Below, in pieces: positions 22,726 to 64,000 of a stretch of 64,000 bases of DNA; position 1 is the stretch's first letter, and every line of letters begins with the position of its first letter. A program made the translations under genes and the position numbers. Where the stretch lies: contig JAJEKV010000064.1 of the NCBI GenBank assembly GCA_021234155.1, positions 7,876,001 through 7,940,000 on the forward strand. Direction: 5' to 3'. The notes beneath the pieces are model-generated. The model had not been told where the DNA came from, made no database searches, and was given only the letters and a program-made list of their open reading frames with translations. Source of the stretch: Isoetes taiwanensis. Its lineage: Eukaryota; Streptophyta; Lycopodiopsida; Isoetales; Isoetaceae.

Positions 22726-23113
22726 CCCCCTAGATCAGATTGTTGTAATGTGATAGTCATGTTGTTGTAATCGATTGTCGTAATACTCTTGCTTTTGTAA
22801 TTTGTAAGGCGTTCCACTTGACTTCATGTTCAACTGCCGCGACCGATAGCCTTAAGGTTCAAATTGGGGCCAATTTCTATGAGGGAACTCTTCTAGTGCA
22901 GGAAATTTTCGACATGTATTTATTTTCTTGGTCAATGTACATAAGTTTTTTCACTCAATTTCATTATAAAACCTATATAGTGAGTAATAGGTGCGAAATT
23001 GGGCTACCAATTTGCACCCCCGTTCACTCTAAACATATACACGAGTGTCGAGATGCGAAATTGGGCGCCGCCAATTTGCACCCCCTGTGTATAGCAAAAC
23101 ACTATCCTTGTGC

Positions 23114-25190: not shown

Positions 25191-25249
25191 TAAACTTAGC
25201 ACATTTGACATATACACCCTCAAAATTTAGCAATGCACAAGCTAACATG

Positions 25250-25770
25250 CAATGCACATGAGGGTTAATAAAAATGGGCGCACCAATTTCATAGACAAGG
25301 AGATGCAATTTAACATGCTATATTCACATGGGGCCAACCCAAATTGGGGCCGCCAATTTCAGAGACAAGGAGATGCAATTTGACATGCTATATTCACATG
25401 GGGCCAACCCAAATTGGGCTACCAATTTCATAGACAAGGAGATGCAATTTGACATGCTATATTCACATGGGGTTAACCCAAATTGGGCTACCAATTTCAT
25501 AGCCAAGGAGATGCAATTTAACATGCTATATTCACATGGGGCCAACCCAAATTGGGCCCGCCAATTTCATACCCAAGCGGATGCAATTTAACATGCTATA
25601 TTCACATGGGGCCAACCCAAATTGGGCGCCCAATTTCATACCCAAGCGGATGCAATTTAACATGTGTCATGTAGTATCCCTCAGATTCGAAATTGGGCCC
25701 GCCCAATTTCATAGCCAAGACGCCGCAAGAAACATGGGAGGCCTCCCAAATTGGGCGCCCAGGATGGCCA
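25250..25770. repeat. hairpin minisatellite 1 (about 70-bp units)
   Basis: Seven units, spaced roughly 70 bp, each with AAATTGGGC facing GCCAATTTC and a shared GGAGATGCAATTTRACATG filler. It lies between the methyltransferase-like and ParB-like coding segments on the minus strand, so it may be intronic or intergenic. The start of the same array is visible at the window end in copy 1b. Confidence 0.8.
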
Positions 25771-25893
25771 AGGGATTTATAAAAAAAAAAACAGATCGCA
25801 TCCACAATTAGAAATGACTTCATCAATATGCGCTATCTTGGGATAGTCCACGCTTTCCTTTCTTCTGACTTTCCATAGAATGCCCATTGATTC

Positions 25894-27147: not shown

Positions 27148-27479
27148 GTCGATTGCTATACCTGCATTCTGTGTCCTCCGAGTCCCGGGCTCAGCAAAGT
27201 ACAGGCACAGATCCTTGAGGTGATTCGTGCTAGACCTGTGGTGGATATTGCCTACCTCTATGCACCAAGTAAATTTATCTCTTTCTGGCAGCCATTAGTT
27301 CGACCCACTTCAATACCATTGAACTCAATTCCCCCTCTTGCTTTTTGTCGCAAAGAAATGCCCGTATAACGGAGGGCCGATCCTCGGTGCACGTCTTGCT
27401 TTGTTTAGTTCTTGCCATGGGTGCCGCATAACATCATTCATGAATCCCATTAGTGGTGTGTCAAAGAATTAAAAGAGCA
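27148..27479. other. cargo region without recognised gene
   Basis: Sequence between the ParB-like frame and minisatellite 2. It may contain the promoter or 5' exon of the minus-strand gene. No motif was identified. Confidence 0.4.
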
Positions 27480-28210
27480 ATTTGCCAGAGCGGAGGAGAT
27501 TACAAGACTAACCAAAGATTGCAAGAGATCCCAAATTGGGCTCCCAATTTGCGTGAGCGTGAGGAGATTACAAGAAGAGAGAAGCCCGAGGGTCCCAAAT
27601 TGGGCTTTTCCAATTTGCCGTGAGCAGGGAGGTTACAAGAAGAGAGAGGCTGAGGGTCCAAAATTGGGCGCCCGCCCAATTTGCCAGAGCAGAGGAGGTT
27701 ACAAGAAGAGAGAGGCCAGAGGGTCCCAAATTGGGCGCCCGCCCAATTTGCAGAGCAGAGGAGATTACAAGAAGAGAGAAGCCTGAGGGTCCAAAATTGG
27801 GCCGCCCAATTTGCCAGAGCAGAGGAGGTTACAAGAAGAGAGAGGCTAGAGGGTCCCAAATTGGGCGCCCCAATTTCTGAAAGCGCAGGAGATTACAAGA
27901 AGAGAGAAGCCCTCGAGGGTCCAAAATTGGGCGCCGCCAATTTGCCAGAAAGCAGGAGGTTACAAGAAGAGAGAGGCCGAGGGTCCCAAATTGGGCGCCA
28001 CCCATTTACAAAGACATGAGGTTACCTAGAAGAGAGACCTCCAAATGACTTACGAAAGCAAGAGCAGACAAATGGGCGCCCGCCCAATTTGCCCCAGCTT
28101 TGGGAGGTTAGAAAGCAGTAAGAAGGTTTAGAGCTTTGATCCGATTTGCTGATCCAAGGGACTTATGAAGCCAAGAGGAGACAAATTGGGCGGCCTTCTG
28201 TGGTAATTAG
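27480..28210. repeat. hairpin minisatellite 2 (about 65-bp units)
   Basis: Nine units with a conserved GAGATTACAAGAAGAGAGA or GAGGTTACAAGAAGAGAGA filler and the palindrome AAATTGGGCG..CGCCCAATTTG. The unit spacing is about 60-70 bp. Long open frames on both strands through this block are products of the repeat and are not genes. Confidence 0.85.
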
Positions 28211-28422
28211 AATGATCCAACGGGCCAAAGGGTTATTGGGTGCAGAGGAGACAACTTCTGAGCTACAAAGTGACAACCAAGCAGAGAGAGGTGCGCGCCA
28301 TATCATTGGGTGGACTCCTTAAGGCCAGTGGCTTATCTCCTGCACTAATGTAAAGAACTGAAGTTGAAGAAAAGAGCAGTACCTTTTCCTCCCTTCACGG
28401 GTCGACTTTCCATGAAAGCAGT

Positions 28423-28634
28423 GGCACCTGGAAGCTAGCAGTCAGCGCTTGGAAGAAATCACTTTGAACACTACAGGCGCCTGGTAGCTCGAAGTTAGCG
28501 CACTGAAGAAATCAATTTGAAAACGATAGGCGCCTGGATGCTTGGAGTAAGCGCTTGGAAGAAATCAGTGTGAACACGATAGGCGCCTGGATGCTCTGTG
28601 TCAGCGCTTCGAAGAAATCGATATGAACAGGCTC
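28423..28634. repeat. 53-bp tandem minisatellite, four units
   Basis: GGCRCCTGG starts at 28423, 28476, 28529 and 28582, each followed by an AGCGC..TGAAGAAATC block. It is unrelated to the hairpin repeats. Non-coding. Confidence 0.85.
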
Positions 28635-29400
28635 AAAGAATGCCTGAATGCGAAAAAAGGAATGGGCGGTTAGGTTTAACCGATGAGTGACAAGTGGCGC
28701 TATGCAAAAGAAGACCCTAAAAATAGACGTTTTAAGTAAATATGGACCAAAGGACGTAACAATAAAATAGACAGCTTTGCAATAAATGTGCCCGAAAAAG
28801 TAAATGCGCTTTTTTTAAATTGACATACACGTATTGAAATTTAAATTTTAAATTTTGAATTCTCACGATGCCCGCCCAATTTCAAATTTATAGTACGGTC
28901 CGCCTGGTACATTTTCAATTTCAAATTAGGGCCCCACCAATATTTGATTTACGTCCACCGTGATTTGAATTTGAATTTGAATATATATTGAACTATGGTG
29001 GGAGAATTGATTTTGAAATACTCTCGAGGAAGCCGAGCTGCTAAGCCATTTCGTTCTCTCACATTCTTGGGCAAAGAACTTCTTCAAATGGATGGCGTCA
29101 TGCGATTCACCAAAGGTAGGTTTCTTTCGGTATATAATGCTCATTCTTTGCCCGGATTGGTATAGAACATTAGTGATGATAAGATTCGACGATAAAAAGA
29201 TAATTATGAGAGATGTATGTTCGGTCCCCTCTATATTCTATCTCTGGTAGCATGGAAGCAGGGCCAAATGGGTGCCAAATGGGCTGATAGACCTCCCCGA
29301 ATATGTATCATTCCCCGGGTGCCCGCCTTTAGAAAGAGTGGCTATGTTTCATTTATGTATAGCACCTCAAAATTACTAGACCGTGGAGCCAATTTTAGCA
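28635..29400. other. cargo region without recognised gene
   Basis: Contains two further isolated GCCCAATTT/AAATTRGGGC half-hairpins (28870-28935) and AT-rich sequence. No gene was recognised. Confidence 0.4.
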
Positions 29401-30005
29401 GCTAAGAAGACCGGCAAACAGGGAGGAAATTGGGCGGTGTTCAATTTCAACTCCTCAAAGTTACTTAGACTGTGGAGCAAATTGGGCGCCCACTTTCAGC
29501 AGCCTAAGAAACATCGCATCAGGAGGAAATTACGGTGCCCAATTTCAACTCCTCAAAGTTACTATACTAGGAGCAAATTGGGCCAGCCAATTTCAAAGTA
29601 AGAACGCCGCAATGTGGGAAATAGGGCGGGTGCCCAATTTCAACTCCTCAAAGTTACTATACCAGGGAGCAAATTGGGCCACCAATTTCAGCAAAATAAG
29701 AAACATCAAAGAATGGTGGAAATTGGGCTACTGCCCAATTTCAACTTCAAAGTTACTAGATTGGAGCAAATTGGGCCAATTTGACCAAATAAGAAACATC
29801 AAGAATGGGAGGAAATTGGGATGGCCGCCCAATTTCAACTCCTCGGTTACTAGACCAGGGGAGCAAATTGGGCGCACCCAATTTGAGCAAAATAAGAAAC
29901 ATCGCATCGGAGGAAATAGGGCGGGTGCCCAATTTCACCTTTCCAATTTACGTAACAACAGGGAGAAAATTGGGCGCCCGCCCAATTTCACCATCTAAGG
30001 AGCAT
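29400..30005. repeat. hairpin minisatellite 3 (about 50-60-bp units)
   Basis: About nine units combining a CAACTCCTCAAAGTTACTA block, an AATAAGAAACATC block and the AAATTGGGC..GCCCAATTTC hairpin. The repeat pattern creates long spurious frames on both strands. It lies upstream of the DUF7869-type gene. Confidence 0.85.
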
Positions 30006-30626
30006 GTGCTGTAACTTTGCTCTTGAACTGATTCATTTTTTTTGGTGCGTGGAGGTGTACCTATTCAAAGATGGTCCGGGCGGTTGGCAAAGGGACCATG
30101 GGAGCTAGGGAGAGATGCCACTTTAAAGACATCCCGGATGGACTTGTGAGTGTGGGTGTTCTAGCCGTGTTTGAGGGGCATCATGTTCTCTCTTGACCTA
30201 CTCCGAGCAAGTACCTTAGGTGAGGCATTGGGTTCCTTCATTCTCCGGAGGGAAAGTGATGTTCATGACTCGATGTCGTGGGCGTCTTGGCCGGCATCAA
30301 AAAGACAAATGAGGGGAAGCAACAGACACCATGTCGCTAACTAGGTACACACTCATCGAGACCGACCGCGAAATTTATCACTCATGTGCTGCCATCCCCG
30401 CAAATGAAGGGATTTATATCCTTCACCGGGTCCGTGACGATGCAAGATGTGACCAGTTCTTGGGTATGAAGACCGTAGGGGTGTCTCATTCTTCGAAGGC
30501 TTTCCCCCTCGACAGAGGTGAACTTCCTGTGTCCCAAGATGTTTGACAATACCTAAAGCGGCATGCTTTTGAGGTGGAATAATGATCTAGTTAGGGTTTG
30601 TGGGGTGAAGGTGTCGGAAATTTTAA

Positions 30627-33087
30627 GTGCGGCCAAAGTGGAACAAAGATGATACTGACGCCGAGCCGGGCAGCTCGGAGATTCGTAGCATCCGCAAAGA
30701 CGAGAAGCGTAAATACACCTTCCATTCTCGTCGGCCAAAGAAAGCATCAAAGCCTCCAAAGATAGATCGGCTAACAACCAATGAAGCCATCTTGAGGTAT
30801 AGGAAGACCATGTGTTGCAAACAGAGATGTTGTGAGAAATTCAGTAGGGATCAAGCTATAAACATGCGAAAGGATTTCTTTGCCATGAAATCGAGTGACA
30901 GGACCACTTTTGTGTATGACATGTTAGGCAACAATATGAAGGGTAGAAGGGTTCATCGACTAGTCTTGCAAGGCATCGATTAATCGTGAGAGGGCTTGGT
31001 ACCTTGGTCTTGGGATTTCAAAGCCCGGGTATCCGGGTGGAAGGCGGAATTCGCTCCGGTGCTCGAAAGGCCGAGCATGGCAATTCAGGCACTATGAAAG
31101 CACGTGCGGCCACCTTGGCCTCAGAGGCTGTTTTTTCCATGTTTGTGAAGGAAAATTGTGAGTCTTTACCTCACCGTAGCAGGAGAAATGATGATGGGAT
31201 TCGAGAAAACGTGAGGAAGTTGCCTGCTATGTTTACGAAGACATGCATTCTCGAAGAGGTCAACGCTGAAGTGATGGCTCTCACAGGCAAGAAGGTATCT
31301 CTGACAGGATTTCATAGGACGTGGAGACGTAGCTTCAAGGACGTCAGTATTGCTAAGAAGAATGCGTTCTCCAAGTGTGACACTTGCGAGGTTATCCGCA
31401 TCGAAGGCTGCCAAGACCAAGGATGAGGCCGAGAGGAGAATATTGCATGATCGAGAGAAGGGCACATAGACTAGAGCAAAGAATCATGTCGCACCCAAGA
31501 TCGGTCATGGAGACTGTTATCCCACAGGCATCCTCGAGACTTTGTATGTATCATTCACGACAAAATGGATCAGGCAAAGACTATGATTCCAAAGTTGTTC
31601 GATTCCGTGAAGTCCCTTTGGAGACTAGATAAGCTAAAGACTTCATTGACAGGTGCACTTACCCACGGCCATGGGAGAGGGTGCTATGGAAATTTTGCTT
31701 TGGATCTGTGGTCAGACGACTCCAACTTCCATGTAGGTTCTTTGAATAGTATTTTGAAAAGGTTGGAGCTGCCTAATGAGTTTGCAGGAGGCCATCTTGC
31801 ACTGTCTGATCCATCAGTCCCAGATTGGGCCAGGGCCTTACGTGACACCACTGCGCTAGCGTCCAAGTTGTCGCTGTCTGGGAAGAGCATCCCCGTTGCC
31901 ATCCCTCAACCTGAGGGACCCTCATTGAAGCGTCTCCCTCGCAAATTGCTGTTGCAACTAGACAATGCATCCGGACAAAACAAAAATAGGTATGTATTCT
32001 CGTATCTTTCATACCTTGTATATCTGGGTGTTTTCGAGGAGATTGAGTTAGGGTTTATGATGCCTGGCCATACACATGACGATATAGATGCTATGTTTGG
32101 AAATTTTTCATCTACTTTGAAGAAAGCCGAAGTGCTAACCATGCCCGAGTTGTTGTATGAATTTCATACGTGTAATCTCAACACGCCAGTGCCATATGTT
32201 GTTCATAAGGTTCCAGATTGGAAAGGTTTCATAGAAGGGTATATCCCTGATGGGGAAGATAGATTGACAGGTCACACTGAGCCTCTGACCTTTTTGTTTG
32301 CTATGAATGGTGACTGGCCTGTCATGTACCATAAGGCTCGGCCCCACGCTAGTGGATTGGCTACCACCGGGTGGAATAAGAATGTGGAAAGAAGGAGAGG
32401 ATGGAAAACCCCTAATGCCATCCGAAATCCGAAGATGCTAGCACCTAAGAGCTCGGTGAAAGACATTGGTCAGCTCAAACAAGATCCATAAGCATATCCT
32501 CCATTGGGTCGCATGCTCGACGAACAAGAAGGGCACACCAGAGACGGCCAAATATACAGCACAATTTACGGCGACAATTGAATATTGGATGGGACTCTTG
32601 GAGCATCTGAGTAACATCACCAACGTGGAAGGTCCTTACGAGGACTTTTGGCCGCACAAGACTAGGCAAGATAGACTTGACGCGTGCGATGTGGTGGTCG
32701 TGGTGGAGCCAATTGCAACCATCACTCCCGCTTATGTTGGTCCATTGAAGGATAAGCCCGCATGCGCAATTCAATCCTTTCAAGGATTTGAAGAAGGGCA
32801 TGTTTGTATTGGCGCGCCCTGATGATGTCTTGTGCCCAACATGGCTAGGGTATGCTACAGAAGAACCCCAAATGGATGATAAGAAAGACAACTTCGAGAC
32901 TATCTAGGTCACTTGGTGGGAGCCTGTCCCTGTTAGGAACCAGGTGTTCCCAGCCAACTATGTCAATTGTTGGAAGAAGAGATGGAGGCCGACCACTGCT
33001 AGTGACCGCATTGAGATAGAGAGTATCGACTACGCTTGGAGTCCTTCGAATAAGAAGAAGCTACCAAACACTGTCAAGATTCTGTAA
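30627..33087 (+). CDS. DUF7869-type protein gene of CACTA-1a
   Basis: Coding segments are at 30627-30983 (KRKYTFHSRRPKK .. MCCKQRCCEKFSRDQAINMRKDFFAM, a Cys cluster usual near the N-terminus of this family), 30990-31430 (frame-shifting), 31565-32491 (308 codons) and about 32780-33087. In the 308-codon frame QLDNASGQNKNRYVFSYLSYLV (D133) and GHTHDDIDAMFGNFS (D172, D173, D175) match the hallmark DN..ENKN and HTHxDID motifs of DUF7869, a widespread family of transposon-like distribution. These acidic residues could be an RNase-H-like (DDE) site, which is an inference. The C-terminal segment (GMFVLARPDD .. VTWWEPVP) looks like a small beta domain. The TAA at 33085 belongs to the inserted TRIM, so the original C-terminus was longer. 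The start is uncertain; an upstream frame at 30331 may belong to it. Confidence 0.6.
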
Positions 33088-33830
33088 CGGGCCCATGGTA
33101 GACCGCTCGAGTATTCGAACCTTGAATGTGCCTCGTATGGCCCCGGTGACACCGCATAAATGGGTAGAAGTGACTACTCATAAACGTCTAGACGGTTTTG
33201 CCCAGTTGGCTAAGGGCATGTCGGTTAGGAATGTTACAGTTGGTATCAGAGCAGGTCTCGAGTTCGAGTCTCCATGGGTGCCTATATGCATGGGTAATTT
33301 GCAAAGACTTGGTAATCATTGTGACATGGTATAGCCTTGGATGCTCGAGGACGAGCATAGTTCTAGTGGGAAAGACTGTAAAGGGCCCATGGTAGACCGC
33401 TCGAGTATTCGAACCTTGAATGTGCCTCGTATGCCCCCAAGACACCGCATAAATGGGTAGAAGCGATTACCCATAAGCGCCTAGGACGGTTTTGCCCAGC
33501 TTGGTTAAGGGCATGTCGGTTAGGAACGCTATGCTTGGTATCGTGAGCGGTGTCTCGAAGTTCGAAGTCTCCATGGGTGCCTATATGCATGGGTAATTTG
33601 CAAAGACTTGGTAATCATAGTGATATCGTATAGCCTTGGATGCTCGAGGACGAGCATAGTTCTAGTGGGAAAGACTGTAACGGGCCCGTGGTAGACCGCT
33701 CGAGTATTCGAACCTTGAATGTGCCTGTGGGGCGTTCCGGACACCGCATAAATGGGTAGAAGTGACTACTCATAAACGCCTAGACGGTTTTGCCCGGCTT
33801 GGCTAAGGGCATGTCGGTTAGGAACGCTCT
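33083..33830 (+). mobile_element. TRIM retroelement, tandem LTR-int-LTR-int-LTR
   Basis: Three LTRs of about 155 bp (33083-33238, 33377-about 33533, 33676-33830) begin TGTAAMGGGCCC; the first ends TTACA. Two internal segments of about 140 bp start with TGGTATCAGAGC at 33241, the initiator tRNA-Met primer-binding site of plant LTR elements. They end in a purine-rich AGTGGGAAAGAC tract just before the next LTR. GATTC flanks the whole array (33078-33082 and 33831-33835), a 5-bp target duplication. No coding capacity. Arrays of this form arise by recombination between copies. The upstream GAGGACGAGCATAG phrase resembles the 3' end of plant Ty3/gypsy elements, a possible parent. Confidence 0.88.
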
Positions 33831-34224
33831 GATTCCCACACTTGTTGCGAATATATCGCTTGCACGGGATGTATGTTAGTGTTATCGAGCGTCTCTTTTA
33901 TAAAAGTCCACAATTCAAGGTATTGTCCATATTTAATGAAACCGTGCTTTTAATTGATAATTATGTGCTAGTATTGAACGTTATCTCTTTAGCATGGATA
34001 CAATTATATTGTCATTTCCACTTTTAGAACCTCTATTTTAGCAGTCCACACAATTTCATTGAAATACTAGATACAAAATTTGATGACATTTTTTCATAAG
34101 TCTTGAGAAAAGGTTAACACAACATAGTTATAACATTGCTTAAAAGTTGTAGTAATAATGTGCCTAAATTGCATTGTAAATTTGACAAAATATATATATC
34201 ATTGTTTAGATGAAAAGTTTGACA

Positions 34225-34413
34225 TTAAACTGCAATGTAAATTTGACAAAAACACGGCCATTGCCTTGATGAAATATTTGACACTACTAATTTGACGCAT
34301 TCTTGATACAACATGAGCACTTTGTGTCAAGATAGTAGCATTCGACACAAAATTGTCACTACATTTACCTCTTGACACAATTGTTGACACTATACCCCCA
34401 TCCTCTTGTAGTG
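34225..34413. repeat. CACTA-1a 3' subterminal repeats and terminus
   Basis: TTTGACA, TTGATACAA, TGTGTCAAGA, TTGACACAA and TTGTTGACAC occur closely spaced before the CTCTTGTAGTG terminus. They mirror the motifs at the 5' end and define the right boundary of the element. Confidence 0.75.
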
Positions 34414-34416
34414 TCA

Positions 34417-50475: not shown

Positions 50476-51312
50476 CACTACAAGAGAAATGTACCAATAA
50501 CGTCTAGTATAACGTCAAAAATCTTGACACAAATCAATCTCCTTAGACTCCAACAGTTGTCACATTTTTGACGCTATAGCTGACATGATCATTTGCCACA
50601 AAGTTGACGCTCGGGCGTCAAGTGTTATATCAAGATTGGGGCACATTCAGTTGCCACAATTCCTGACACAAAGGCACCTTTATAATGAAATTGCAACATC
50701 ATTGCCAACAAGTTAGTCTCAAGGTAGCATCAAAAGTTCTAAGGACACTATAACAAATATCACATTCAAATATCACCAACTTTTTCAACAATATTATAAC
50801 TCAATTGCCATAAGTGATTGTACATATTGGGGCAAACTTTCATCAAACTTGTAATGAGATAATAACAACCATGTCATATACGTTTCATCAACCATTAATT
50901 AGCTACCATCAAGCTTGTGTCTAATCCAATTTAAATATTGCATTAACTCTTGCGACTAACCTACCCCAAATATTGCATCAACTAGTGCATCATGCTTTTT
51001 GTCAAGCAAATGTCAATCCTAGCAACAAAAAAAATGATCAGGTTTTATGACAAGAAAAGAACCATTCCACAAAGCTATTTATTAATAGTGTCAACCATTA
51101 TAACTCTTTTGAAATTGTATTATAATTTGTGTAATACAAAGATCACATTTCCTTATTGCGATGCGTTTGACAAGATACACGAAGTTGAGACAAAATACAT
51201 CAGAAAGGTAAATATTCTTATTCATAGCAGTAAAATTTCTACAAATGAGATGCTCATATGCAAAAGGTCAAATACTCAAAAAACATGAGTAATACTCTAA
51301 GACAATCTGATC

Positions 51313-54300
51313 TTATTCATTGGCCAAATTATCTCCATCTTGTGGATCACCAGAGGTGCCTTCAGAACCGTCATTTTTCTCTCCACTACATTCTCCCTGT
51401 TAATCACATTCACAAATGTATATCAGTGTTGGTGAAATTAAGTCAATGTTGAAATCTAGCACATTATTATACAAAACTAATCTGCCAACAAATATGACAT
51501 TGGCACATTTAATACTTTAATGAGAAGATGGCCAACAATGTTAAACAGTAATTTTCAGCAAATAGTTTTATGCAATGTGATATTAAGTAGGAAAGAAAAT
51601 ATTAACCATTTCCTTGTCCGAATCGCTGTCAATATAGCATACTTCCTGCAGATTACAAAACTAGAGATAAGAAAGGTAATCAAAATAAAAAGTACCAATA
51701 TGAAATTATGCTGCACAGAGAATACACAGCAGTAAATCTAACTAGTTCAGACTTGCTCCATCTTGCAAAAGGAGATCTAAATACTCCATGATATTTTACA
51801 AACTTCAAAAGCTTCCTACACTGCAGACATTTGGATGTTGGAAATCTGATATGGAAAAGCCAGAAAGGGAAGTTTATAGATTCAATGAAAGGGGCAAAAA
51901 CATTAGTACATTATCAGCCATAATGCTTAAATAACGAAGAACTTATCTCCAGTTATGAATTGCAAATGGAAACCAACCATTGTTGATCATGAAAGCGTAA
52001 TTTTTTAATGAAATAAGTGTGCCTACCTAAAGCATCAAGCATAAAGGATGACACTTACCGCCCCAACTTCCTTGCCCTTTTTCGATTTCACCTTAAAAAT
52101 TATGCCCGGACTTGTTCCTTTAATATAATCCATGGCCTTAAACTATAATTAAGACACAAAAATTAAAAAGATGAAAGGTTTGAATTTCAAAGAAAATAAG
52201 AATTGAAGCAAACATTAAATCAGCAAACATAGACTAACCTTTTTGGCACAAATCCTTTTGCTATCGTTCTCTTTTTAAAGGCAGCATATCCACCTTTCTC
52301 CAAGATTTCTTGAAGCATATCATCTGTGGGCATTGAGCCCCAATCGAACTGCAATTTTCAATTTAGAAAAGAACAAAGACAAATAATCAAAGGCAACTTA
52401 GAAATCAATACCTACAAACTTAGTTTTGATTGACATAAGTCCACCGGAACCAGTTTGTTGTCTTGTTTTCCGTTTGGCAGCATCGTCCTTTTGACGTTGA
52501 TAAATCTTGTCACAAGAATCCACAAACCTTTTCCATGACTCTTCATCGACTTGCATTGGCCTTGTTGCATTGCGCAGGTTATCCCTAGTTAAAGTTTACA
52601 TAGGAAAAAGTAAGTTTATTTCATATAGATAACAAGAAAAGTGTGATGTAATTCCTAACCTCCAATGTCGCCATCTCTTCTTCAAGAACCTAATAATGTC
52701 TCTCGCTCAATCCATCACCAAACTGCTCGCGAATATATTTCAATGTCTTTTGGAGATGGCGTGGCTTTATCTCTTTAAAATGCTTATCTACTTCCCTGCA
52801 ATACAGTTTCAAAGCATCTGCTGCTTTTTCCTCAAACTCGTGGCCAACTTCATCTCTTAATAGCTCTCATTTAAAAAAGCAAACTTGAAATTCAGAAGTA
52901 ATTAGCAATAGTACTTGAAGTATTAACAAAAGTAATTAGAAGTAATTACCCCAATAAATCATAGTACAAACTCACTCTAATTTTGAACTACCTAATAAAT
53001 GAAATGAACTCCAAAACATACCTCTGAATTTGATAATCTCGAAATTGTACATTGTCATTAGAGATCAACTTCAAACTTTTCTTTATCAGGACTGTCTTTA
53101 TCAAGATCTGTGTCAGGGGAAAAGGAATCTTCATTATCGAATCCATTATCTTCTGAAGAAAACGAAGAAGCACTTAGAACAACGTGCTTGTTTAAGACGA
53201 TGGATTTCCTTTTAGCTCCTTCTTTCTATTCTATTCTATTCTATTCTATTCTATTCTTTGGATGTCTCAGCGTCTGGAACATTGCATGAATTGCTTGAAC
53301 GTCGTGGATGCTTCAACCTAGAAAAGAAAGTAGGCATGTTAATGAAAACATCGCACACTAAGTTAAAACATATAAATAACAGTACACAAACCTTGCGGTA
53401 CATAAACTAAGTAGCATCATGATGCAAATAACAGTACACAAATCTTGTCGTACAGAACTCTCTATCTAATACAAGATACTCTCTATATATCATATTTGTG
53501 CAGAAAAGTCAGCTGGTTTCTAAAGAGGTGCTGGATGCAAGTTATATAACAGCAGGGATAATTGAAAACATAAGCACATTAACAGCATATAGAGGAACTG
53601 TATCGCCAACCCTGTTATTGCTGCGAATCTTTTTTGAACCAATGCTGCCCTGCACTCAACATTTCATTTTGTGAGGGCATGTCAAAATGGCAATGGCTGC
53701 ATTAGGCTTTAATATATTCAATAAAGATTTTACAACCATTAAGTGGCCATTGTCAGCAAAAATTCAAGGTACATAGCCTGCCAAGGCAATTGATATTAAA
53801 GAAGACGAAATGCGACATTTCTATGGAGGAGATACTAGATGCTAGAAGCCAGAAGTGCAAAATGGAGTTTTTATAGAGTTACAGCAAATTAAAAGTAAAC
53901 AGAAAGCCCACTAGATGATGCAAAATAGAAAGCCAAAAAGTTCTGGAATTTACATTAAAAAACCCACTTTATATCCTAAACAAAGAGAGTAGTGCTTCCT
54001 TGTAAACCTAATGAAAATTTAATAGGCTTACCTTTCTTTTCCTTTCTTTATCATTTCAAGGCGTTTGTTCTTTCCTCCTAAATCACCATTGTGCTTCTCA
54101 AATGGCCTAGATGAGTTGTTTGAATCATCACTTGCAGAATTTCTTCGAATACGTTTCTCCAACTCGCTCATCAGAGCAGCCAGAACATCTTCAGGCACAT
54201 TAGCAAGGTAATTTTGAAGCCTTCCTCCATTGGACTCATCCACTGAACCGTCCTTGGCCTTGCCAGATCCATCATCAGGAGACACTGAAGAAAAACAAAG

Positions 54301-54378
54301 AGCAATAAATATCACCGACTCAGAAACCCTAAATTAGAAACTTGTTCTTACTACTTCTGAATACTTACTGCTCGGCAT
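51313..54378 (-). CDS. TnpA-like protein gene of CACTA-1b
   Basis: Same exon plan as 12603-15653. The first exon is clear here: ATG at 54378-54376, MPS plus one base, donor GTAAGT at 54368, joining in phase to 54285. A pentanucleotide expansion, six CTATT units plus four bases (about 34 nt) at 53226-53259, lies inside the third exon (TSKEGAKRKS region) and shifts the frame. Other small differences sit at 52345, 52570 and 52700. The frame in this copy is thus broken, while copy 1a has that exon intact. Confidence 0.6.
53226..53259 (+). repeat. (CTATT)6 expansion in TnpA-like exon
   Basis: Six perfect CTATT units, absent at the matching site of copy 1a (about 14530). It is not a multiple of three with the adjoining bases, so it shifts the minus-strand reading frame. 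Confidence 0.9.
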
Positions 54379-55270
54379 TCTGGCGATGGTGAACGAAGCT
54401 AGGAATAGCAAGCCGTGGACTCAGCGCAATCGAGAACGGAGAATCCATCTTTAAGGTGAGTACTCGCGCCATTTTACTGTTAAGAAAATCTTGCATGTTT
54501 CGTCTGTTAAGAAAATCTTGCATGTTTCGTCTGTTTTGTTTTCATCTGTTACTATTATTTCTCTCTCCCTCCCTTTTTTCCCCCCTTACGCTTTGTTCTT
54601 GCCCTTTCTTTATGGATTTCACTCCTTTTTTTTTCAATCATAAAAGCTCATGTTGCCCCTTTTTTTATTCACCTTTTGTTTGGCCCCCTTTTGCAATCGT
54701 AAAAAGCAATCGTAAAAGGCTCATGTTGCCCATTTTTTTTGCATAAAGGGGGGCTATTAAACGTTTTGAAAGTTACTTTGAATTTTTATAGTCTCAAGTT
54801 ACTTTGAAAAGAGATATGGCCGTATAAAGCTTTTGCATGCATTTAAAATTAGCTTTATGCCTCAATATGTTTGACATTTAGGGTAATAAGTTTTTTTTAA
54901 CCAAATAGTACATTGTCTTAATGATTTGCATGGTCCTAAGAATCTACATTGGCATTAAAATGGGGATATTAAGTCAAAATAATTTGGCTAGATTGCATAT
55001 GCTATTTGCGTATTTAATTGCACATTGGATCTAAGTCTAGTTTGACATATTGATTTTAGTAGGTTAAAAACTAGATACTTGATGTACATGAACTTTTTTC
55101 CTTCTTTTGTTTACCTTTCCTTTGGTTTGTTGGAATATATGCATTTTGGGTATTATCTTTTTACTTGGCATGATATTTTTTATTTAAGGTAGAAAAATAG
55201 TTGTCCATTGAAGTTATTGTTTGTTTTCATTTACACCATTGATGAATGTGAATTATTGAACAGGTTCAAC

Positions 55271-58200
55271 ATGTCGAGCTCGGAAAGTAGTGGCAATGCC
55301 AGGGATAGTTGCTTGCCACGTCGCATCTTAACAAAATCATCTTCTTCCTCATCATTTGAAAAGCCAACATCTTCAACATCTTCATCATCTCGCGAACCAA
55401 ATAGGAAACGAGCTAGAAGAGACCCAAACAAAGCGTTTTATCTCCATCGGGGCCGTTGTTGGTGCAACAAGTGTAAAGGCAAGACTACTCGTTCGTATCG
55501 CATTCGTCAAGAACATGAAGTAAGGTTTGGCCTCTGGCAGAGCCAGCCATGTCAACCTGATGAAGGATATGATCCCGAACATGATGAAAATGAAGTAAGT
55601 TTGTTCCTAAAATCATTATTTCTAGCATAAAATAAGAATAAAGTAGACCCCATTTCTTTTCTTTGTTTGATTCTATTCTATTTGGTCCATGTAGTCCCCA
55701 GATGAAGCATCTGGCTCACATGACGCATTCATTGGTGAGGATGTGATTCATGATACCATCAAAAATTTCTTTCCAATAAATGAACAAGCCAATGATAGCG
55801 AAAATAATGATGGTGCACATGCTAGCGATGTAGATGAGAACTTGTATAGGGAAAAGGCAACATATCTCCGGGATGAGGCAAGCACGCCATTATTCCCAAA
55901 TGCTCGTGTTTCTCGCCTTGCCACTTGTATACTTATTCTAAATCTCCAACACAAAGTTGGTTGGAGCAACAACAGTGTCTCTGAACTTTTCAGGTACGTA
56001 AGTGCAACTCATTGGAATGTTAAAGTCTAATGTATTTATGCTTAATAATTCCTTTTTCTGTAGTTTACTTGATAAAATATTGCCAGATGGGCATTGTCTC
56101 CCAAAATCTAGGAGGGAGGCTAGGGAGTTATTGCGTTCATTTGGACTAGAGTATAACATCGTGCATGCATGTGTTAATGATTGTGTTCTATTTCATAAAG
56201 ACTATGCAAATGATCAATCATGCCCAAAGTGTAAGGAAGCACGCTATGAGGAAGGCAGAAAGACAAAAGTGGCAAGAAAGGTATTACGTCATATGCCTAT
56301 AATCCCTCGGCTTCGGCATATTTTTCGATCGCCAACGCTATCAGATTTTATGGACTATCATGTGCGACATCGTAGTACGGATGGAAAGATGAGAATCCCT
56401 GCAGATGGGGCTTTGTGGAAGCAGATAGAGGAAAAGTGGCCCATGTTTGCCTTGGAGCCACGCAACATTAGACTTGGTCTGGGGATTGATGGTCTTTGCC
56501 CTTGGGGATCTAGGTCATCCTCTCATACTGTGTGGCCTGTTGCAGTTATAAATTATAACATCCCACCATGGATGGCTACAAAACCTGGCCATATCATGTT
56601 GACTTTGATTATTCCAGGTATGCATGTGTATATAAAACTTAATTTCTATTGCTTGTATTAAGTGGGAATTGGATATTACAGGGAAATATAAAGTAAAAAA
56701 TATGGACGTCTACTTAGAACCTTTGGTGGATGAACTTGAGGTTTTGTGGAAGGGAGTGCATATGTATGACATTTCTAAAACTCCACATGACTTTACGTTC
56801 CATGGGATGTTATGCTTTACTCTTCATGATTATCCGTGGTTTTCGTAAGCTTTTGGGTATGATGTACTATGTAGTGCAAAATCATAATAAACCATAGGTA
56901 TTATTTGAATTAATCTTTTGTTTTATTGTAGGTCTGCAAACAAGTGGTGCATGTGGATGTCCTTCTTGTGGGACTAGCTTAACATCATATAGGTCAAGAC
57001 ATCTGAAAAAACAGATATATATTGGACATAAAAAGTACTTGACAGAGGGTCATCCTATGCGTGGATCTGATGAGACACCGAAGCCAAAGAGATGGACACC
57101 TAAGGATTGGTTAGATGCTTGGAAGGAGATGAATCCCAATGTGGATCACTTGACTAGTTATGGAGATGCAAATGCAAATCTTCCGCCAGGAATGAAGAGG
57201 TTATCCATATTCTATAGGTTAGAGTATTGGACTGACTTGGAGTTGGTGCATTTACTTGATCCCATGCACATCTTCAAAAATGTCGCGCATTCTCTTTGGC
57301 AGCATATAACAGGAGAACAGGAAACATTGGCTGCTAGGATGGATCTGAAAGAGCAAAAAATCAAAAAGAAATATTGGCCCATCGAGAAGAAAGGTAAAAA
57401 ATCCCTCACATGGAAACAAGGTGCATGGGTTTTAGGGAAAAAACAAGTTGTTGAAGTGAACAAAAGGATATCAAAGGTACGCACACCAACTGGATATGGA
57501 GCCTCTTTGCGTAAAGCATTCACTAAAAAAGGCAGTCTCATTGGATTAAAGTCCCATGATTGGCACAAGTTTCTTCAGGTATACTTTAATTCCTATACCT
57601 TATTTTCTTATGAAAGTTTGATATTTCAACATATGTAGTTATATACTTTGTTTTTTTCCTTTTCAGCATATACTGCCATGCGTTATAGGAGACTTCTTGA
57701 CTCCACAAGTAAGAAGCATTATATATCGATTGGGTAAATTTGCAAGGTGGGTCTCTTCTAAAGAAATCGAAGTGTCTGAGATATTAAATATGGAGGAGGA
57801 AGTGGTTATGCTGCTTTGCGATATTGAAAAAGAACTTCCCACTAGCTTTTTTGATCTACAGGTAACTATTAAGCAAATATTACGTAATCATGTAAATTCT
57901 TAGCAATGAAAATTATTGTTAATGATGTAGTTACACTCACAGGTGCATCTGTTATTGCATATCCCCAATGAGATAAGGTTGGCTGGACCTGCTCCTAGTA
58001 GGTGGATGTTTTTTCTAGAGCGCTATATGAAGGTGCTCAAGGGCTTTGTCCGTCAAATGGCAAAACCAGAGGGATGCATGGCAGAAGGGCATCTTGTACA
58101 GGAAACATTGTTCCACCTAAATGATGTCACTACCTCATGTCATCCTGCTGGCCCTAAATTGTGGGAGAAAGAAGAACCTGAAGAGATCACATCAGAGGTG

Positions 58201-59493
58201 TTACAGGGTAATGGAGTAGAACGAAGTCTGAGTGATGAAATGCTTCTTGCTGTAAGCACATTTGTGATCAATAATACTGCGAGTTTACAACCATGGAGGG
58301 ACTTGTTTGAAAGCGCTAAGGAAGATGCACAGAGAAGGTCAAGACGATCTATTTTGCCAAATGTTATGGATAGCGCATGGTTGTTGGCTCATATGGATGA
58401 AGCCAGAGATCGTGGCCAAGTTATTCGAGATGAGGATTATGAGATTGCCCTTGATTGTAGTAGGAAGGTAAATATTTGATGCTAATTTCATTCCTTTTGT
58501 AGAATATTATTCTTAATTATTGTTATTTTGTTCTAGGCACGATTCTACACTTCAATGTGGGCTTATGGCCAACATTTTCGCATCAACACAGTTGATAAAC
58601 ATAGGGTCACATTTGATTCAGGAATCAGCTCACAATTTGAACAGAAAAGTCAATCTAGCAATAGGGACCGCAACCTTTTGGAAGGTAACCTTGATTACAT
58701 GGGCATCCTAACAGATATCATTGAACTGGATTATCGTAGCTTTCATGTAAATGTCTTGAAGGCACGATGGTTCAAAGTTGTATACAGAGGTCGTGGCAAA
58801 ACAGTTAGGAGTCATCCATCAGGATTTCCAGAAGTAGATTCCTCAAAGGTATTGGCTGAGATGAACGAACCTTTTGTTTTTCCAAGTCAGGTTGAGCAAA
58901 TGTTTATCCATGAGAACCCTAATGACACAAAGTGGTGGATTGTTGTACATTGTCAACCAAGGGCTCGACGTGTGATTGATCTTTCTATAATTGAAAATAA
59001 TATGGAAGAGATCTCCAGTGATGATGATGCTAATGATGGTGGAGGTGTTGCGGATACTGCAGATGATGTTGAATCGCCAAGTCTAGATGATGTAGAAGAT
59101 GCTTTTAGTTTAGAAGAAAGAGAAATTTCAGAAAGCTCTTTGAACATAGAGGATGTTGGTACTTATTCAATAGAAGGTCATCTTGAAGGCGGATTTATTC
59201 CTGTTGAGGATGATGCTAATGAACATGTTCTTCTAGCACCATCAATGACACTTCCAATGAGAGATGAGGTTGATATGGAAGCAAATTGTGCGCTTCGATC
59301 TCCATTTAGTTCGCCAATTCATCTTTGCACTCATGATGAGGATTATATTGAAGATGAAGAAGTCGCAGAACATGCACATGGTCATTCAGAAGCAGTTAGG
59401 GGTTTGGCTCTTCATTTATATCTAGACGATGATGAGATAGATGATATTGAGCATGATCTAAAGGAACAAATTGATGTGTTCACATACGATTAA
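55271..59493 (+). CDS. TNP2 transposase of CACTA-1b (near-intact)
   Basis: Exons: 55271-55594, 55695-55993, 56064-56617, 56682-about 56844, about 56932-57578, 57667-57861, 57943-58467, 58537-59493, nearly all with GT/AG borders; a leader exon ends at 55455-like position 54455. Domain order as in copy 1a: finger WCNKCKGK, HACVNDCVLF, CPKCKEARY, IIPRLRHIF, WPVAVINYNIPPWM, CGCPSCG, FYRLEYWTDLELVHLLDPMHIFKNVAHSLW, DUF4218-like, DUF4216-like (GILTDIIELDYRSFHVNVLKARWFKVVY) and an acidic tail of about 150 residues. The only doubtful junction is exon 4/5 (56844/56932), where the phase does not close cleanly. This is the best candidate for an active transposase in the window. Confidence 0.9.
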
Positions 59494-59807
59494 TTAACAT
59501 GTTTCTATTACTATTACTGCTATGATAAATATTAAAAGCACTGTTTCATTATTTATGGACTTTCCGAAAGTCCATACGTCTCCGAAATTGAGTCAAATTT
59601 CTAAAATATGATGGTTTTTTAAATAGAAGGACGGAATTTTTCGGGAAACATGCTGGTAGGTGATATGGCAGAAGCTTTTTCTATTAAGCCAAGGACAAGC
59701 CCGCCCAACTCGCGGTCAAGGAAAAGCGCGTCCTGTGTGTGAGGTGTTGCTAGTGAGGCTTTGTTTTGCAAATCTGTGCAGCATAGATTCATAACGAAGC
59801 AGTGAGA

Positions 59808-60305
59808 ATGGTTGAAACGAGGCGCCGGTATGGATTCACAATGACTGAAATGCAGTCCCATATCAGTGAGCAGATCTTAGCCCACGCGAATCAATTGCAG
59901 GTTGAGGTGCATAATGAGATAAATCAGAATGGAAGAAACGAAATCAGTGGGCAGGTCATGAAGCTCCTCCGTGGGGATGGGTTGTTAAAGGACAACAATT
60001 ATCAACTCACTAGGGTGGAGTTGGAAGCTTCCCTGATATCATTGAAACGACTTGTCTACAGGGGAGAGGCCCTGAAGAGGCTACTCAAATTAGAGGATGT
60101 TTGGCTGCACAACTCATTCAGACCATTATTTAAGAAGCTTTATAAAAAGGAGAAAAGGCAGCGTGAAGATTTGGTAACCAAGCTCATTGTCAACACTCCT
60201 CACTCGATCCTTGAATTGGATGAATGGCTGGACCTGTATAGCAGAAATTACATTGATGAGTTCGATCAGGGTGATCTTATTCAAGTCGAACTAGCCATTG
60301 ACTGA
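59808..60305 (+). CDS. orphan cargo gene of CACTA-1b, intact (165 aa)
   Basis: Continuous frame from ATG 59808 to TGA 60303-60305, about 315 bp after TNP2. Predicted soluble and highly charged, with a long helical first half (TMTEMQSHISEQILAHANQLQVEVHN), a VELEASLISLKRLVYR segment and a KKLYKKEKRQREDL basic helix. An inserted second start in frame (M two codons upstream is non-ATG) is ignored. No family recognised. Conservation in both element copies, next to the transposase, suggests a transposon function, but none can be named. Confidence 0.6.
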   Translation: MVETRRRYGFTMTEMQSHISEQILAHANQLQVEVHNEINQNGRNEISGQVMKLLRGDGLLKDNNYQLTRVELEASLISLKRLVYRGEALKRLLKLEDVWLHNSFRPLFKKLYKKEKRQREDLVTKLIVNTPHSILELDEWLDLYSRNYIDEFDQGDLIQVELAID

Positions 60306-60499
60306 AAACTGGCACCCTGATATTTTCTACTTTGTATTCTGTTTTTGTCGAACTACCTATGTCGAGGCATGTTGTTTTATTTGGTTTTATAATATGTGTA
60401 TGACATCTATGTAATGCATTTCTTAATGAATGGAACCGGTTCTATCTATTTTTATGATGGAGCATAGGCCACAATCCCTAGACACCAATTTGTTTTGTG

Positions 60500-60600
60500 G
60501 AAATTGGGCGCCCGCCCAATTTGCCCTCATAGTCGTTTGAACAAAGTTTAATACTAGCCTCCAAAGGAAATAGGGCGGCCGCCCAATTTCGTTAGACTTG
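60500..60600. repeat. two hairpin motifs (AAATTGGGCG/CGCCCAATTT)
   Basis: GAAATTGGGCGCCCGCCCAA at 60500 and AAATAGGGCGGCCGCCCAAT at 60570. The second contains GGGCGGCCGCCC, the perfect palindromic core. The same positions in copy 1a (21778 and 21845) are partly altered. Confidence 0.85.
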
Positions 60601-60727
60601 CGAGAAAATACAAATACAGACTGTCACAAATATAATTAATCCAACTTGAAAACTATGCGACCAAGTGTGGATGCTACCTATAACAGTCATTTCAGATATA
60701 AATTCTTATGAACTTATGAAATACATC

Positions 60728-61072
60728 TCATAGATTGTAATTATTGGTGATTTTGTCAATCTCATAAGCGTCGCGCTCCGGAACCCAAACAATATGGATA
60801 GTAACATGGTACTCGCCGGGGGAGTCTTTCGGTCGACCAGTAGCTATACCATGCAGCCAGGTATCAAGGGTGATCCCTTTGATAATGCATGCATGAAGGT
60901 CGTCGAAAGTCATGAGGCAAGTGAGGGTGTCCAAATGCTCTGGAGGTGGAGGCAATTGGGACCTCTGAAGAACTCTAGCAGGGCGGCGAGACATTGCAAA
61001 GGGCTCTGCTATGCAATCGAATGCGGCAATACTTATAGCCAAGTAATTATTGATGAAGCACTGTAGTAACAT
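60728..61072 (-). CDS. small cargo gene A of CACTA-1b
   Basis: Frame from ATG at 61072 to TGA at 60728-60730, about 114 codons. The N-terminal part is uncertain. The C-terminal half reads LDTWLHGIATGRPKDSPG then HVTIHIVWV....AYEIDKI. The same layout is found in gene B. It ends convergent toward hairpin repeats at 60505-60600, on the opposite strand to the neighbouring orphan gene. Function unknown. Confidence 0.5.
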   Translation of the reverse strand: MLLQCFINNYLAISIAAFDCIAEPFAMSRRPARVLQRSQLPPPPEHLDTLTCLMTFDDLHACIIKGITLDTWLHGIATGRPKDSPGEYHVTIHIVWVPERDAYEIDKITNNYNL

Positions 61073-61236
61073 TATTGGGCGTACATACGACTGGTAAGTA
61101 TATCCAATAATTATTGTGTATAATACCAATAATAATTTTGGTTGGTATAAATATATATCAAACCAATGTTGGCCAACAAATTTGGCCTTAGTCTAACCAT
61201 GTGGTCTCCTGTTGGTCCTGAGCGTGATTCCATTAC

Positions 61237-61446
61237 GTGCAAGATGAATCACGAAAACTTCAAGCGATCTTGAAAGCGAAAATAGCCATGGAAGATTGGA
61301 TGACCACTGTGAGTCTCAATCCTCGCCATTATCCTGATCCCTTCGATGTTATCATCCATCTGATATGGAATAGAGAGCATCAAATGTACATGATAGAAAA
61401 GATCTCTGGGGTGGCTGCTGAAAATGACTCAGAAGAGTCCCCCTAG
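61237..61446 (+). CDS. small cargo gene B of CACTA-1b
   Basis: Open to TAG at 61444-61446. MEDWMTTVSLNPRHYPDPF then VIIHLIWNREHQMYMIEKI and an acidic C-terminus (ENDSEESP). The first in-frame ATG is internal (61291, MEDWM), so an upstream exon or start lies to the left. It is divergent from gene A across an AT-rich spacer at about 61080-61200. Confidence 0.5.
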   Translation: MQDESRKLQAILKAKIAMEDWMTTVSLNPRHYPDPFDVIIHLIWNREHQMYMIEKISGVAAENDSEESP

Positions 61447-61579
61447 ATCAGATTGTTGTAATGTGATAGTCATGTTGTTGTAATCGGATTGTCGTAATAC
61501 TCTTGCTTTTGTAATTTGTAAGGCAGTTCCACTTGACTTCATGTTCAACCGCCGCTTTCGCGATAGCCTTTAAGGTTCA

Positions 61580-61815
61580 AATTGGGCGCCCGCCCAATTT
61601 CTATGAGGGAACTCTTCTAGTGCAGGGAAATTTTTGACATGTATTTATTTTCTTGGTCAATGTACATAAGTTTTTTCACTCAATTTCATTATAAAACCTA
61701 TATAGTGAGTAGCGATTGTGCGAAATTGGGCCCGCCCAATTTGCACCCCCCGTCTCACTCTAAACATATACCGCAGTGTCGAGATCTCGATTGAAGGCCG
61801 CCCAATTTGCACCCC
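61580..61815. repeat. hairpin motifs between gene B and the methyltransferase-like gene
   Basis: Three AAATTGGGC..GCCCAATTT motifs at about 61580, 61725 and 61795, placed between the 3' ends of two convergent genes. Matches 22860, 22995 and 23060 in copy 1a. Confidence 0.8.
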
Positions 61816-61953
61816 AATGCTAGCAAAACACTATCCTTGTGCTCAAGGGTCCACCCCTTCGGTGGCGTTGTTGTGTGAGCAGCTTTAAACTTTCTTCTCC
61901 CCCTTTTTGTGCGCTTGCTTAAGGAGTTCCATCGGCGTGGAATTCTTGATTGG

Positions 61954-63908
61954 TTAAGCGTGGCGTCGAGGAGCATCCTTCTCAATTTCCATTTCAACAT
62001 CATCCTCCTTCTCATTTTCCTCGTCCTCCTTCTCAACTTCCTCGTCCTCCTCAACTTCCTCGTCCTCCTTCTCAACTTCCTTCTCCTTTTCGACATCCTT
62101 TTCTTGCTCTGATGGTAGCGGGTCCACAGCTTGAGCTTCTTGTGTCTCCAAGACAACAGAAGGTTCTCCATCCTTGAGGAGTAGCTGCGTAAACTTTGAG
62201 CTACCCTCGATCACATCTTGGGTGCACACTAATGTAGTTCCCGCCAAAGCATTAATGTTATCCTTCTTCTTTCTAAAGAAAGACATGTCCTTTGCTCCAA
62301 AACCTGCAACCTTTCTCAAATGGTCTGTGAGAGAATCTTTAGACAACCGGAGAGTGGATTGCAACTCTTGCACCGTTTGTGCGGGGAATGGACAAGGAGG
62401 TGGAGGAGTGGACACTACAGCACTTGCCTTGGAGCCGCTTGCTTTCTTTTTACCCTCTGCTATTTTTTGCAATGCACGGGCTCTCGATTTCTTCTCATCC
62501 AGCATTACTTCGAGTTGATCAAAAATCTGAGTAAGTTTAAGCTGCATATTCTCATCACTCTCAAAGGCAGTGGCTTTATACCCTTCGCACATAGCTGCAC
62601 GGCTAAAGGATCCTCCAGAGAAGAAATCAAGGACACTGCATCCCTCAAGCATAAATTTCCGGACAAGGTATGTGCATGTCTTAGAATCTAATTGATGTGG
62701 CAAAAGGGCACCCGCGCCTCCTGCCACACTCTTGTCACCCCAAGGCCGATACAACCCGGTATCTTTGAAGCAAAGTACAACCGTTATAAGTGGCATTGAA
62801 AAGAAATAGACGCCCGGACCACGGGTTTAAATCATGTTACTGCTGCTGCACTCATGATCGGGGAGTTTCTTCTCTATGTCCTCCACTTCTTTCAAGTCTT
62901 TGTGGGAACTTCAATACTCTTGAGGATGGTCCGCATCGTTGAAGCATAGATTCGGTCATTCATTGCGGGGCAGCTTGCTTGGTCTCTGGCCACATACATT
63001 ACAAGAACGAGTCTGCAGCTCGCGAACACGAGAGGAAGGGTTTCTCTTTTTAGGATCATTATGCGCTCCCACCCATACCGACTACCCCCGCCTATAGTCT
63101 TCATGGCGGACAAGCATTCACTCAAACGATCTGGGTGATAAAGATCGTGATCCAATATAATTGCTGGTCCGTAAGCACACCGATCTGGTCCAAGAACTTC
63201 GGTAATCCTCCATGCTCCATTTCTTGATATTTCTGAAATCACATCCAACAAACCGAAAGCGAGGTATTGACCACATCAACCGACATTCCCGGAGGGGACT
63301 CCACACGGTAGCATTTGAATGATTTTGATCCCTCTTCCACCGGTCCACGCAGATACTCATTAACCTTCGGGATAAGAGCCTTTGGAAGGTTAAGCTTTTA
63401 CGCCTCCTTGCTGACTATCAACCCAATCACCTACACTGTTGGCGAACATCAACATCAAATTCTCCGTGAATATAGGATGAATTTTCCTCAAATCGGTCAT
63501 GTTGTCAACACGAAGCTTTTTCACATCTTTGAGATATTTAAGGAGTGCACGCTCGACAGTGCCAATCTTCTTCAGCTCGCCTGCACGGATTTTCATGACA
63601 CGCCTTCCAGTATAGTTTTTGGTGGCCTTTATGTACGTGGTGGCTGTCATAATCTCTGTCAAAAGTCTTTGCAGATCCATTGGATGCATGGACTTTAAAG
63701 GTCGGCACTTGTTATTCGTGAACATTCTCAGGCGGTCCTTTACCACTATCGTCTCACCCAATTCATCTTTTAGCTGGTCTTCATAGAATAACTGAGCCAC
63801 TTGTAGGCACATATTCCAAGTTTCGTCATCCAGATACACGAAGTAATCGTAGTCTCGCATGCTAAGCTTCTTCAATGTCTGCTTCGCTATAGCGAGCCAA
63901 TCCTGCAC
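61954..63908 (-). CDS. DNA-methyltransferase-like cargo gene of CACTA-1b
   Basis: Read leftward. Segment 63908-63390 (172 aa) is helical and charged: MRDYDYFVYLDDETWNMCLQVAQLFYEDQLKDELG, FTNNKCRPLKSMHPMDLQRLL, MTDLRKIHPIFTENLMLMFAN. Then 63330-62850 in mixed frames, with MSVDVVN, a PDRLSECLSAMKTIGGG helix and NDRIYASTMRTILKSIEVP. Last, a clean 280-codon frame (62796-61954): hydrophobic strand, PHQLDSKTCTYLVRKFMLEGC, then SVLDFFSGGSFSRAAMCEGY and AFESDE (residues 54-82), and a Lys/Glu-rich tail. LxDxFxGxG followed by an acidic residue about 17 positions later is SAM-binding motif I, and the preceding helix fits motif X of beta-class N4/N6 DNA methyltransferases. The catalytic (D/S)PP(Y/W) motif is not clearly visible; LDP.GVLTDQ (copy 1a) is a possible relic. 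Substrate unknown. Confidence 0.5.
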
Positions 63909-64000
63909 AGCTTAGTAAACTTAGCACATTTGACATATACAGTCTCAAAATTTAGCAATGCACAAGCTAACATGCAATGCACATGAGGGCCAGCGCAAAT
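63909..64000. other. start of minisatellite-1 region in copy 1b
   Basis: Matches about 25190-25290 of copy 1a (GCAATGCACATGAGGG), where the hairpin minisatellite begins. Cut by the window end. Confidence 0.7.

Follow-up and report, generated by a model that had tools for sequence, protein, structure and literature searches.

A transposon of Isoetes taiwanensis nested in CACTA elements encodes a methyltransferase-like protein that opens with a histone H3 tail

Introduction

Viruses and a few host proteins are known to mimic histones; viral mimics of the H3 tail such as influenza NS1 consist of a short H3-like peptide on a non-histone protein. The mimic described here differs from NS1 in that it is N-terminal, belongs to a plant transposon protein and is exact over eight residues. 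For VANC, a protein of the Arabidopsis VANDAL elements (MULE), the available part of the source describes short motifs that are repeated in the non-coding parts of the element and a model of sequence-specific anti-silencing (PMC10398659). In fungi, 784 H3-like copies, mostly truncated and mutated, are described in hAT transposons of Pseudocercospora fijiensis, and 23 of the captured H3 copies in Pyrenophora tritici-repentis are said to look functional (PMC6710886, accessible portion). Certain fungal DNA transposons, CACTA relatives included, carry an epigenetic enzyme of the TET/JBP type (PMC12730594, accessible portion), and a ParB-methylase of Bacillus cereus with nicking activity is cited in the accessible portion of PMC5512222. 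In a literature search, neither a transposon protein that keeps an H3 tail nor a paper mentioning DUF7869 was found; the fungal hAT capture of H3 was.

The present locus lies in a 64,000-nucleotide stretch of the Isoetes taiwanensis genome (the window; C1072:7876001-7940000), and the genome searched was an assembly of 1,658,258,908 bases in 1,110 contigs. Like VANC, its product is a transposon-encoded protein and short motifs are repeated through the element (PMC10398659, in part); unlike VANC, for which the available part of that source mentions neither feature, it combines an H3 tail with what is probably a methyltransferase-like fold, and DNA binding and anti-silencing are what we infer for it. 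It shares with the fungal hAT elements an H3 sequence multiplied within DNA transposons, but here only residues 1-8 are present, fused to a different protein, whereas the accessible portion of PMC6710886 describes capture of the H3 gene. As in the TET/JBP transposons, a DNA transposon carries a gene of epigenetic-enzyme type; those elements are fungal, encode another enzyme class and come with no mention of an H3 mimic in the part of PMC12730594 available. The proposed order of a ParB-looking stretch followed by a DNA methylase recalls the bacterial and phage ParB-methylase fusions (PMC5512222, in part). In contrast to those fusions, the present protein has neither a Pfam ParB or N6_N4_Mtase match nor a [DNS]PP[YFW] motif; it bears an H3 tail, and its gene has introns and is carried by a eukaryotic element.

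The element that carries the gene

In the first-pass annotation of the window, the methyltransferase-like gene was assigned to a CACTA transposon, since it is present in both CACTA copies between other element genes. This ownership is not borne out. The gene has an element of its own, whose homology limits were set by aligning the window to the copy on contig C1063 and whose ends carry the TIR AAGCACAGTTTCATTA. The TIR was found at both ends of window copy 1 (TSD TTAA) and of the copies on C1063 (CCATT, 5 bp), C908 (AGTC) and C1066 (TGCT); two pieces extracted from C1036 contained no TIR. The gene does lie between other element genes, as had been stated, but its nearest neighbours, gene B (no Pfam match) and the DUF7869 gene, both belong to the nested element. 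The DUF7869 frame is likely to be part of the transposase of that element. The features of the window are collected in Table 1.

Table 1. Coordinates of the two CACTA copies, the nested element and their genes in the window
Feature	Position	Strand	Remarks
Outer CACTA copy 1	11767..34413	+	ends CACTACAAGAG ... CTCTTGTAGTG; 3-bp TSD TCA (11764-11766 / 34414-34416)
Outer CACTA copy 2	50476..64000, on past the window to C1072:7949130	+	flanks ATT / CAA, no TSD seen
TNP2 transposase gene, CACTA copy 2	56898..59493	+	Transposase_21, DUF4218 and DUF4216 matches; DUF4216 just under cut-off
Nested element copy 1	20820..33949	+	TIR AAGCAC[TG]GTTTCATTA; 4-bp TSD TTAA (20816-20819 / 33950-33953)
Nested element copy 2	59536..64000	+	left end in window, remainder beyond
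Gene B of nested element	59808..60305	+	165 aa from ATG; 74% DNA match beside the C1063 copy
DUF7869 frame, nested element copy 1	31475..32491	+	PF25273, E 4e-41
Methyltransferase-like gene copy 1, three exons	23220..27418, low end approximate	-	many indels
Methyltransferase-like gene copy 2, exon A	62841..63902, ends approximate	-	helical part, then motif IV position; frameshifted; clean copies TSAR[FL], D[FL]R[NY]
Methyltransferase-like gene copy 2, exon B	61954..62763, start approximate	-	motif X, motif I (LDFFSGG), FESDE, acidic tail
Two of five exact palindromes AAATTGGGCG..CGCCCAATTT	60501 and 61579 (60501..61600)	.	nested element

The neighbourhood of the gene elsewhere in the genome points in the same direction. 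A DUF7869 match lies within 8 kb, always on the opposite strand, in 29 of the 104 listed places of the N-terminal exon, and TNP2 lies within 30 kb in two of them, both inside the window; since only the best-scored places are listed (104 of 2,870 candidates for the N-terminal exon, 150 of 1,833 for TNP2 and 119 of 12,999 for DUF7869), the 75 places without a DUF7869 neighbour, or the missing of a distant TNP2, may reflect that selection. In the 19 kb taken from C1063, a tblastn search with the TNP2 exons gave no TNP2 better than E 0.29, and another CACTA copy (C1071:1822412-1826091) is too short for the gene. That the gene is a normal part of CACTA's own gene set is highly improbable: both CACTA copies of the window do hold it and the composite has precise CACTA ends, yet the gene has an element with TIR and TSD elsewhere, and the remaining 102 listed places have none of the best-scored TNP2 places within 30 kb. 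Its own TIRs and TSDs, the pairing with DUF7869 and the lack of TNP2 at C1063 thus leave almost no doubt that the home of the gene is a TIR element (AAGCACAGTTTCATTA, 4-5-bp TSD) in which a DUF7869 gene lies divergently beside it, carried by CACTA as a passenger. The case is an example of a nested element that was taken for cargo of CACTA.

The right part of nested copy 1 is interrupted by repeats of about 300 bp (about 33083-33828). With no matching TSD at the second CACTA copy, the two copies need not have transposed separately. Two small frames on opposite strands at 60728-61446 (..HIVWVPERDAYEI.. and ..HLIWNREHQMYMIEKI..) look similar by eye and are possibly further genes of the nested element. 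A short palindrome at 59554-59576 (TATGGACTTTCCGAAAGTCCATA), by the TIR of nested copy 2, folds as a hairpin (z -3.4).

Gene structure and copies

Two earlier observations on the gene held: the minus-strand frame with motif I (61954-62826, 290 aa) is present with LPHQLDSKTCTYLVRKFMLEGCSVLDFFSGG..FESDE, and the window holds another copy 38.7 kb upstream. The gene consists of three coding exons, namely an N-terminal exon, exon A with the helical part and motif IV, and exon B with motifs X and I and an acidic tail; the interval 61954-63908 covers the latter two. The first exon of copy 2 lies outside the window, with its ATG at L033:2154 (window coordinate 66154), and is separated from exon A by repeats. 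The intron between exons A and B is short, as seen in an alignment of 27 copies, and has GT-AG borders in most of them; in window copy 2, the acceptor is altered. Neither window copy is intact. Frameshifts and a stop directly after MARTKQT disrupt copy 2, and copy 1, which has many indels, begins at 27418 with ATGGCAAGAACTAAACAA.., which reads MARTKQ and departs from the H3 tail afterwards.

Copies with open frames exist elsewhere in the genome, and 20 further loci were extracted. Among the best 150 of 1,811 tblastn candidates, relatives are 48-100% identical, and the recurrence of the gene in the genome is far beyond chance. Alignment of the two window copies (14530-25264 against 53254-63989) gave 181 gap openings, 65 of which fall over the exons of the gene, as against 16 in the preceding 2.8 kb; these small indels may be noise that arose in assembling repeats or modified DNA.

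A histone H3 tail at the N-terminus

The protein starts with MARTKQTAR, that is, the start methionine followed by residues 1-8 of histone H3. In open-frame copies the first exon opens with MARTKQTARVPGAGPP.. or MARTKQTARVPGPAP.., and the exact tail occurs in 14 of 25 readable copies, written in seven different codings, while 11 deviate. Residue by residue, A1 and K4 are kept in all 25 copies, R2 in 24, T3 and T6 in 23, A7 in 22, R8 in 20 and Q5 in 18. The start regions examined numbered 27, of which 7 were the best matches and 20 were picked for lower identity; two of the 27 failed the start criterion. The counts lean towards the tail because at least 4 of 9 tail matches were required of a start. 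Mean column identity in alignment A4 is 0.88 over the tail, 0.68 over the following 30 columns and 0.75 for the exon as a whole; copies that are just 48-60% identical to L092 over the exon also carry the exact tail. An N-terminal H3 tail that is kept among copies is therefore almost beyond doubt.

The same start recurs in other genes. A codon pattern for MARTKQTAR, which also admits the Ser codons AGY for the two Arg, matched 1,888 sites in the genome and its reversed control none. A search with the H3 protein returned 16 rows at 97-100% identity and 134 divergent ones (64-89%) among the best 150 of 5,124 candidates. Twenty pattern sites, chosen for differing codings and not at random from 100 listed ones, were extracted; all read MARTKQTAR, one being H3, one a member of the methyltransferase-like family (L069) and 18 other proteins. 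Seven of these 18 were followed over 5 kb. A Histone domain over the cut-off (best E 1.6e-28) was found in L083, L084, L087 and L088, on the strand of the tail and at most 1.4 kb away, never in one open frame with it; no complete histone domain was found within the 5 kb in L082, L085 and L086. In a PDB search the histone fold of L084 hit histone H3 (E 3e-21), and Retrotrans_gag was detected in L084 and L086. The four loci with a Histone domain are repeats and seem to code for H3-like proteins, as may a share of the 1,888 pattern sites; their layout is a MARTKQTAR start, a charged linker and a divergent H3 fold downstream, with a gag frame next in L084. That gypsy-type elements encode stretched H3-like histones is a strong lead only, since tail, fold and gag come together in one of the seven loci (L084) and in no single open frame.

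It is conceivable, if doubtful, that unrelated classes of transposable elements in Isoetes taiwanensis have each put the H3 tail on proteins of their own: the gypsy-type elements on H3-like histones, and the DUF7869 transposon on a sequence-targeted, methyltransferase-derived protein that would coat its own DNA and present a false H3 tail to the H3K4 machinery. If true, this would be histone mimicry by transposons on a genome scale.

The methyltransferase-like body and a second family

Exon B contains a motif X-like helix and LDFFSGG, and motif I and the acidic residue that follows are kept among copies; in place of F.G.G, most copies have FSGG[SA] in motif I. The gene had been described as DNA-methyltransferase-like. 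The methyltransferase-like motif X/I region in a transposon protein stands, the beta order (IV .. X-I) is probable, and what finds no support, besides CACTA ownership, is an ordinary active enzyme. The catalytic motif had already appeared unclear in the first-pass annotation, and a DPPY/SPPY-type motif ([DNS]PP[YFW]), sought in other copies, is absent from all 29 rows of alignment A2. At the site of motif IV, each of the 15 rows that cover it reads D[FL]R[NY], with TSAR[FL] just upstream in 12; all 15 have Arg where the last Pro would stand, and the D and R of D[FL]R[NY] are invariant in alignment A7. Ordinary catalysis is doubtful because no copy covering this site has [DNS]PP[YFW] there. TSARF is another candidate for motif IV; hhalign prefers D[FL]R[NY].

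Profile searches gave suggestive matches. By hhalign, exon B could be aligned in register to the X/I exon of the N6_N4_Mtase family described below (P 0.012 uncorrected, 65 columns, probability 3.5%), exon A with this D[LI]PY family at P 0.047 (uncorrected; probability 1.1%) and the N-terminal exon with the ParB-looking exon at P 0.38 (uncorrected; probability 0.15%). In Pfam, one exon B matches the methyltransferase family PF03602 under the cut-off (E 0.026); no match passed its cut-off, and neither N6_N4_Mtase nor ParB was detected. A profile search of the PDB placed M.RsrI at the correct position with E 0.63, behind four better unrelated rows, while single-protein PDB searches yielded no convincing match and the profile of the N-terminal exon (A4) noise only. 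AlphaFold on shallow alignments reached a mean pLDDT of 42 for the methyltransferase part (A2) and 31 for the N-terminal exon (A4) and returned no usable fold. A bPH_9 match on exon A was rejected (E 0.002-0.01, under its cut-off).

We take a GNHTT..A stretch of the protein, judged by eye, to be ParB-looking. The body that follows it is probably a DNA-methyltransferase fold in permuted order (IV .. X-I) whose motif IV is altered, D[LF]R[YN] against D[LI]PY in its relatives. The body may bind DNA and SAM and is likely not to methylate in the usual way.

The relatives are a second family in the same genome. A search for PF01555 gave 150 scored places (the best 150 of 1,444 candidates), all over the cut-off, and the six that were read belong to a family with a ParB-looking exon (YVLGGNHSFKARRQLY in L104), VVADLPYGF or IIADIPYGF in five of the six and WVLD[AN]F[SF]GSGTT in all six. 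Both L104 and L102 match N6_N4_Mtase (E 4e-18 and 6e-19, respectively). The X/I exon of L104 matches 707 phage records, those listed being mainly annotated as DNA methylase; its ParB-looking exon matched no phage record. ARTK was not found in L100, L104, L109 and L110, pieces that may stop short of the gene start. The loci L100-L105 (e.g. L104:1231-2433, minus strand) present themselves as a high-copy family with intact-looking amino-methyltransferase motifs (D[LI]PY, F.GSGTT).

Repeated motifs and a possible mechanism

The window has 48 occurrences of the 9-mer AAATTGGGC or its complement, where base shuffling predicts 0.18, and all 48 lie within the nested element. In the 19 kb from C1063, all 50 occurrences are likewise within the element. 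The motif is present in each of the 51 loci of the methyltransferase-like family that were counted (L001-L032, L034-L041, L089-L099), some of which are pieces of one and the same copy; 2 of 26 loci of other H3-tail pattern matches have it, as does 1 of 8 loci from the second methyltransferase family. The palindromes are spread through the element, introns and intergenic parts included, and are not confined to the terminal few hundred bases. It is thus as good as certain that AAATTGGGC half-sites and palindromes pervade the element and are absent from the adjoining sequence examined. The palindromes may be sites of the methyltransferase-like protein or, alternatively, of the DUF7869 protein.

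Taken as a whole, these features may best be explained by a sequence-targeted anti-silencing factor with an H3-tail mimic, a reading to which we assign a probability of roughly 0.43. The palindromes would be the address, the methyltransferase-derived body would provide DNA binding and the tail would be a handle on the H3K4 system. The protein would bind the palindromes and so coat its own element, the displayed H3 tail would be taken for a nucleosome by the writers, erasers or readers of H3K4 in the host, and the element would in this way escape silencing, which VANDAL achieves through VANC by another route. For the step of palindrome binding together with display of the tail to the H3K4 machinery of the host, our confidence is tentative and falls a little short of even. 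If the tail is functional, the element would allow a direct test, in an early vascular-plant lineage, of how transposons evade silencing linked to H3K4 and H3K9; it would also be a natural example of a DNA-targeted H3 peptide.

The evidence may also be read differently. The protein could be a regulator of transposition or expression of the TnpA kind, which would bind the palindromes for end assembly or promoter control and would use the H3 tail as a nuclear or chromatin docking peptide with no anti-silencing role. The spread of the palindromes through introns and intergenic parts and the frequent pairing with a DUF7869 gene agree with such a regulator, but motifs beyond the terminal few hundred bases, an H3 identity that is exact over eight residues in 14 copies and a K4 that never varies among the readable ones speak against it, and we hold it to be unlikely. 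Still less probable is that the tail is a functionless relic, inherited from the 5' end of a captured H3 gene. Capture of H3 genes by transposable elements is known in fungi (PMC6710886, accessible portion) and the 11 deviating copies would fit; against this, seven codings yield the same nine residues while the adjoining columns diverge, and 18 of the 20 extracted pattern sites are other, different proteins with the same start.

An active DNA amino-methyltransferase that marks the DNA of the nested element with 6mA or 4mC appears quite improbable. It would account for the kept motif I and its following acidic residue and, if the hhalign register is right, for the invariant D at the motif IV position, and the genome does contain another family that keeps D[LI]PY and scores as N6_N4_Mtase. 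The 29 rows without [DNS]PP[YFW], the Arg in place of the last Pro and the FSGG[SA] form of motif I in most copies do not suit an active enzyme. The proposed anti-silencing factor with its H3-tail mimic is the preferred and most economical of these explanations.

Further features of the window

Another CACTACAAG end was noticed at position 42136 of the window. A 105-bp inverted repeat (95%) was also noticed in the intervals 6379-6483 and 42028-42144, with 35.5 kb between its arms.
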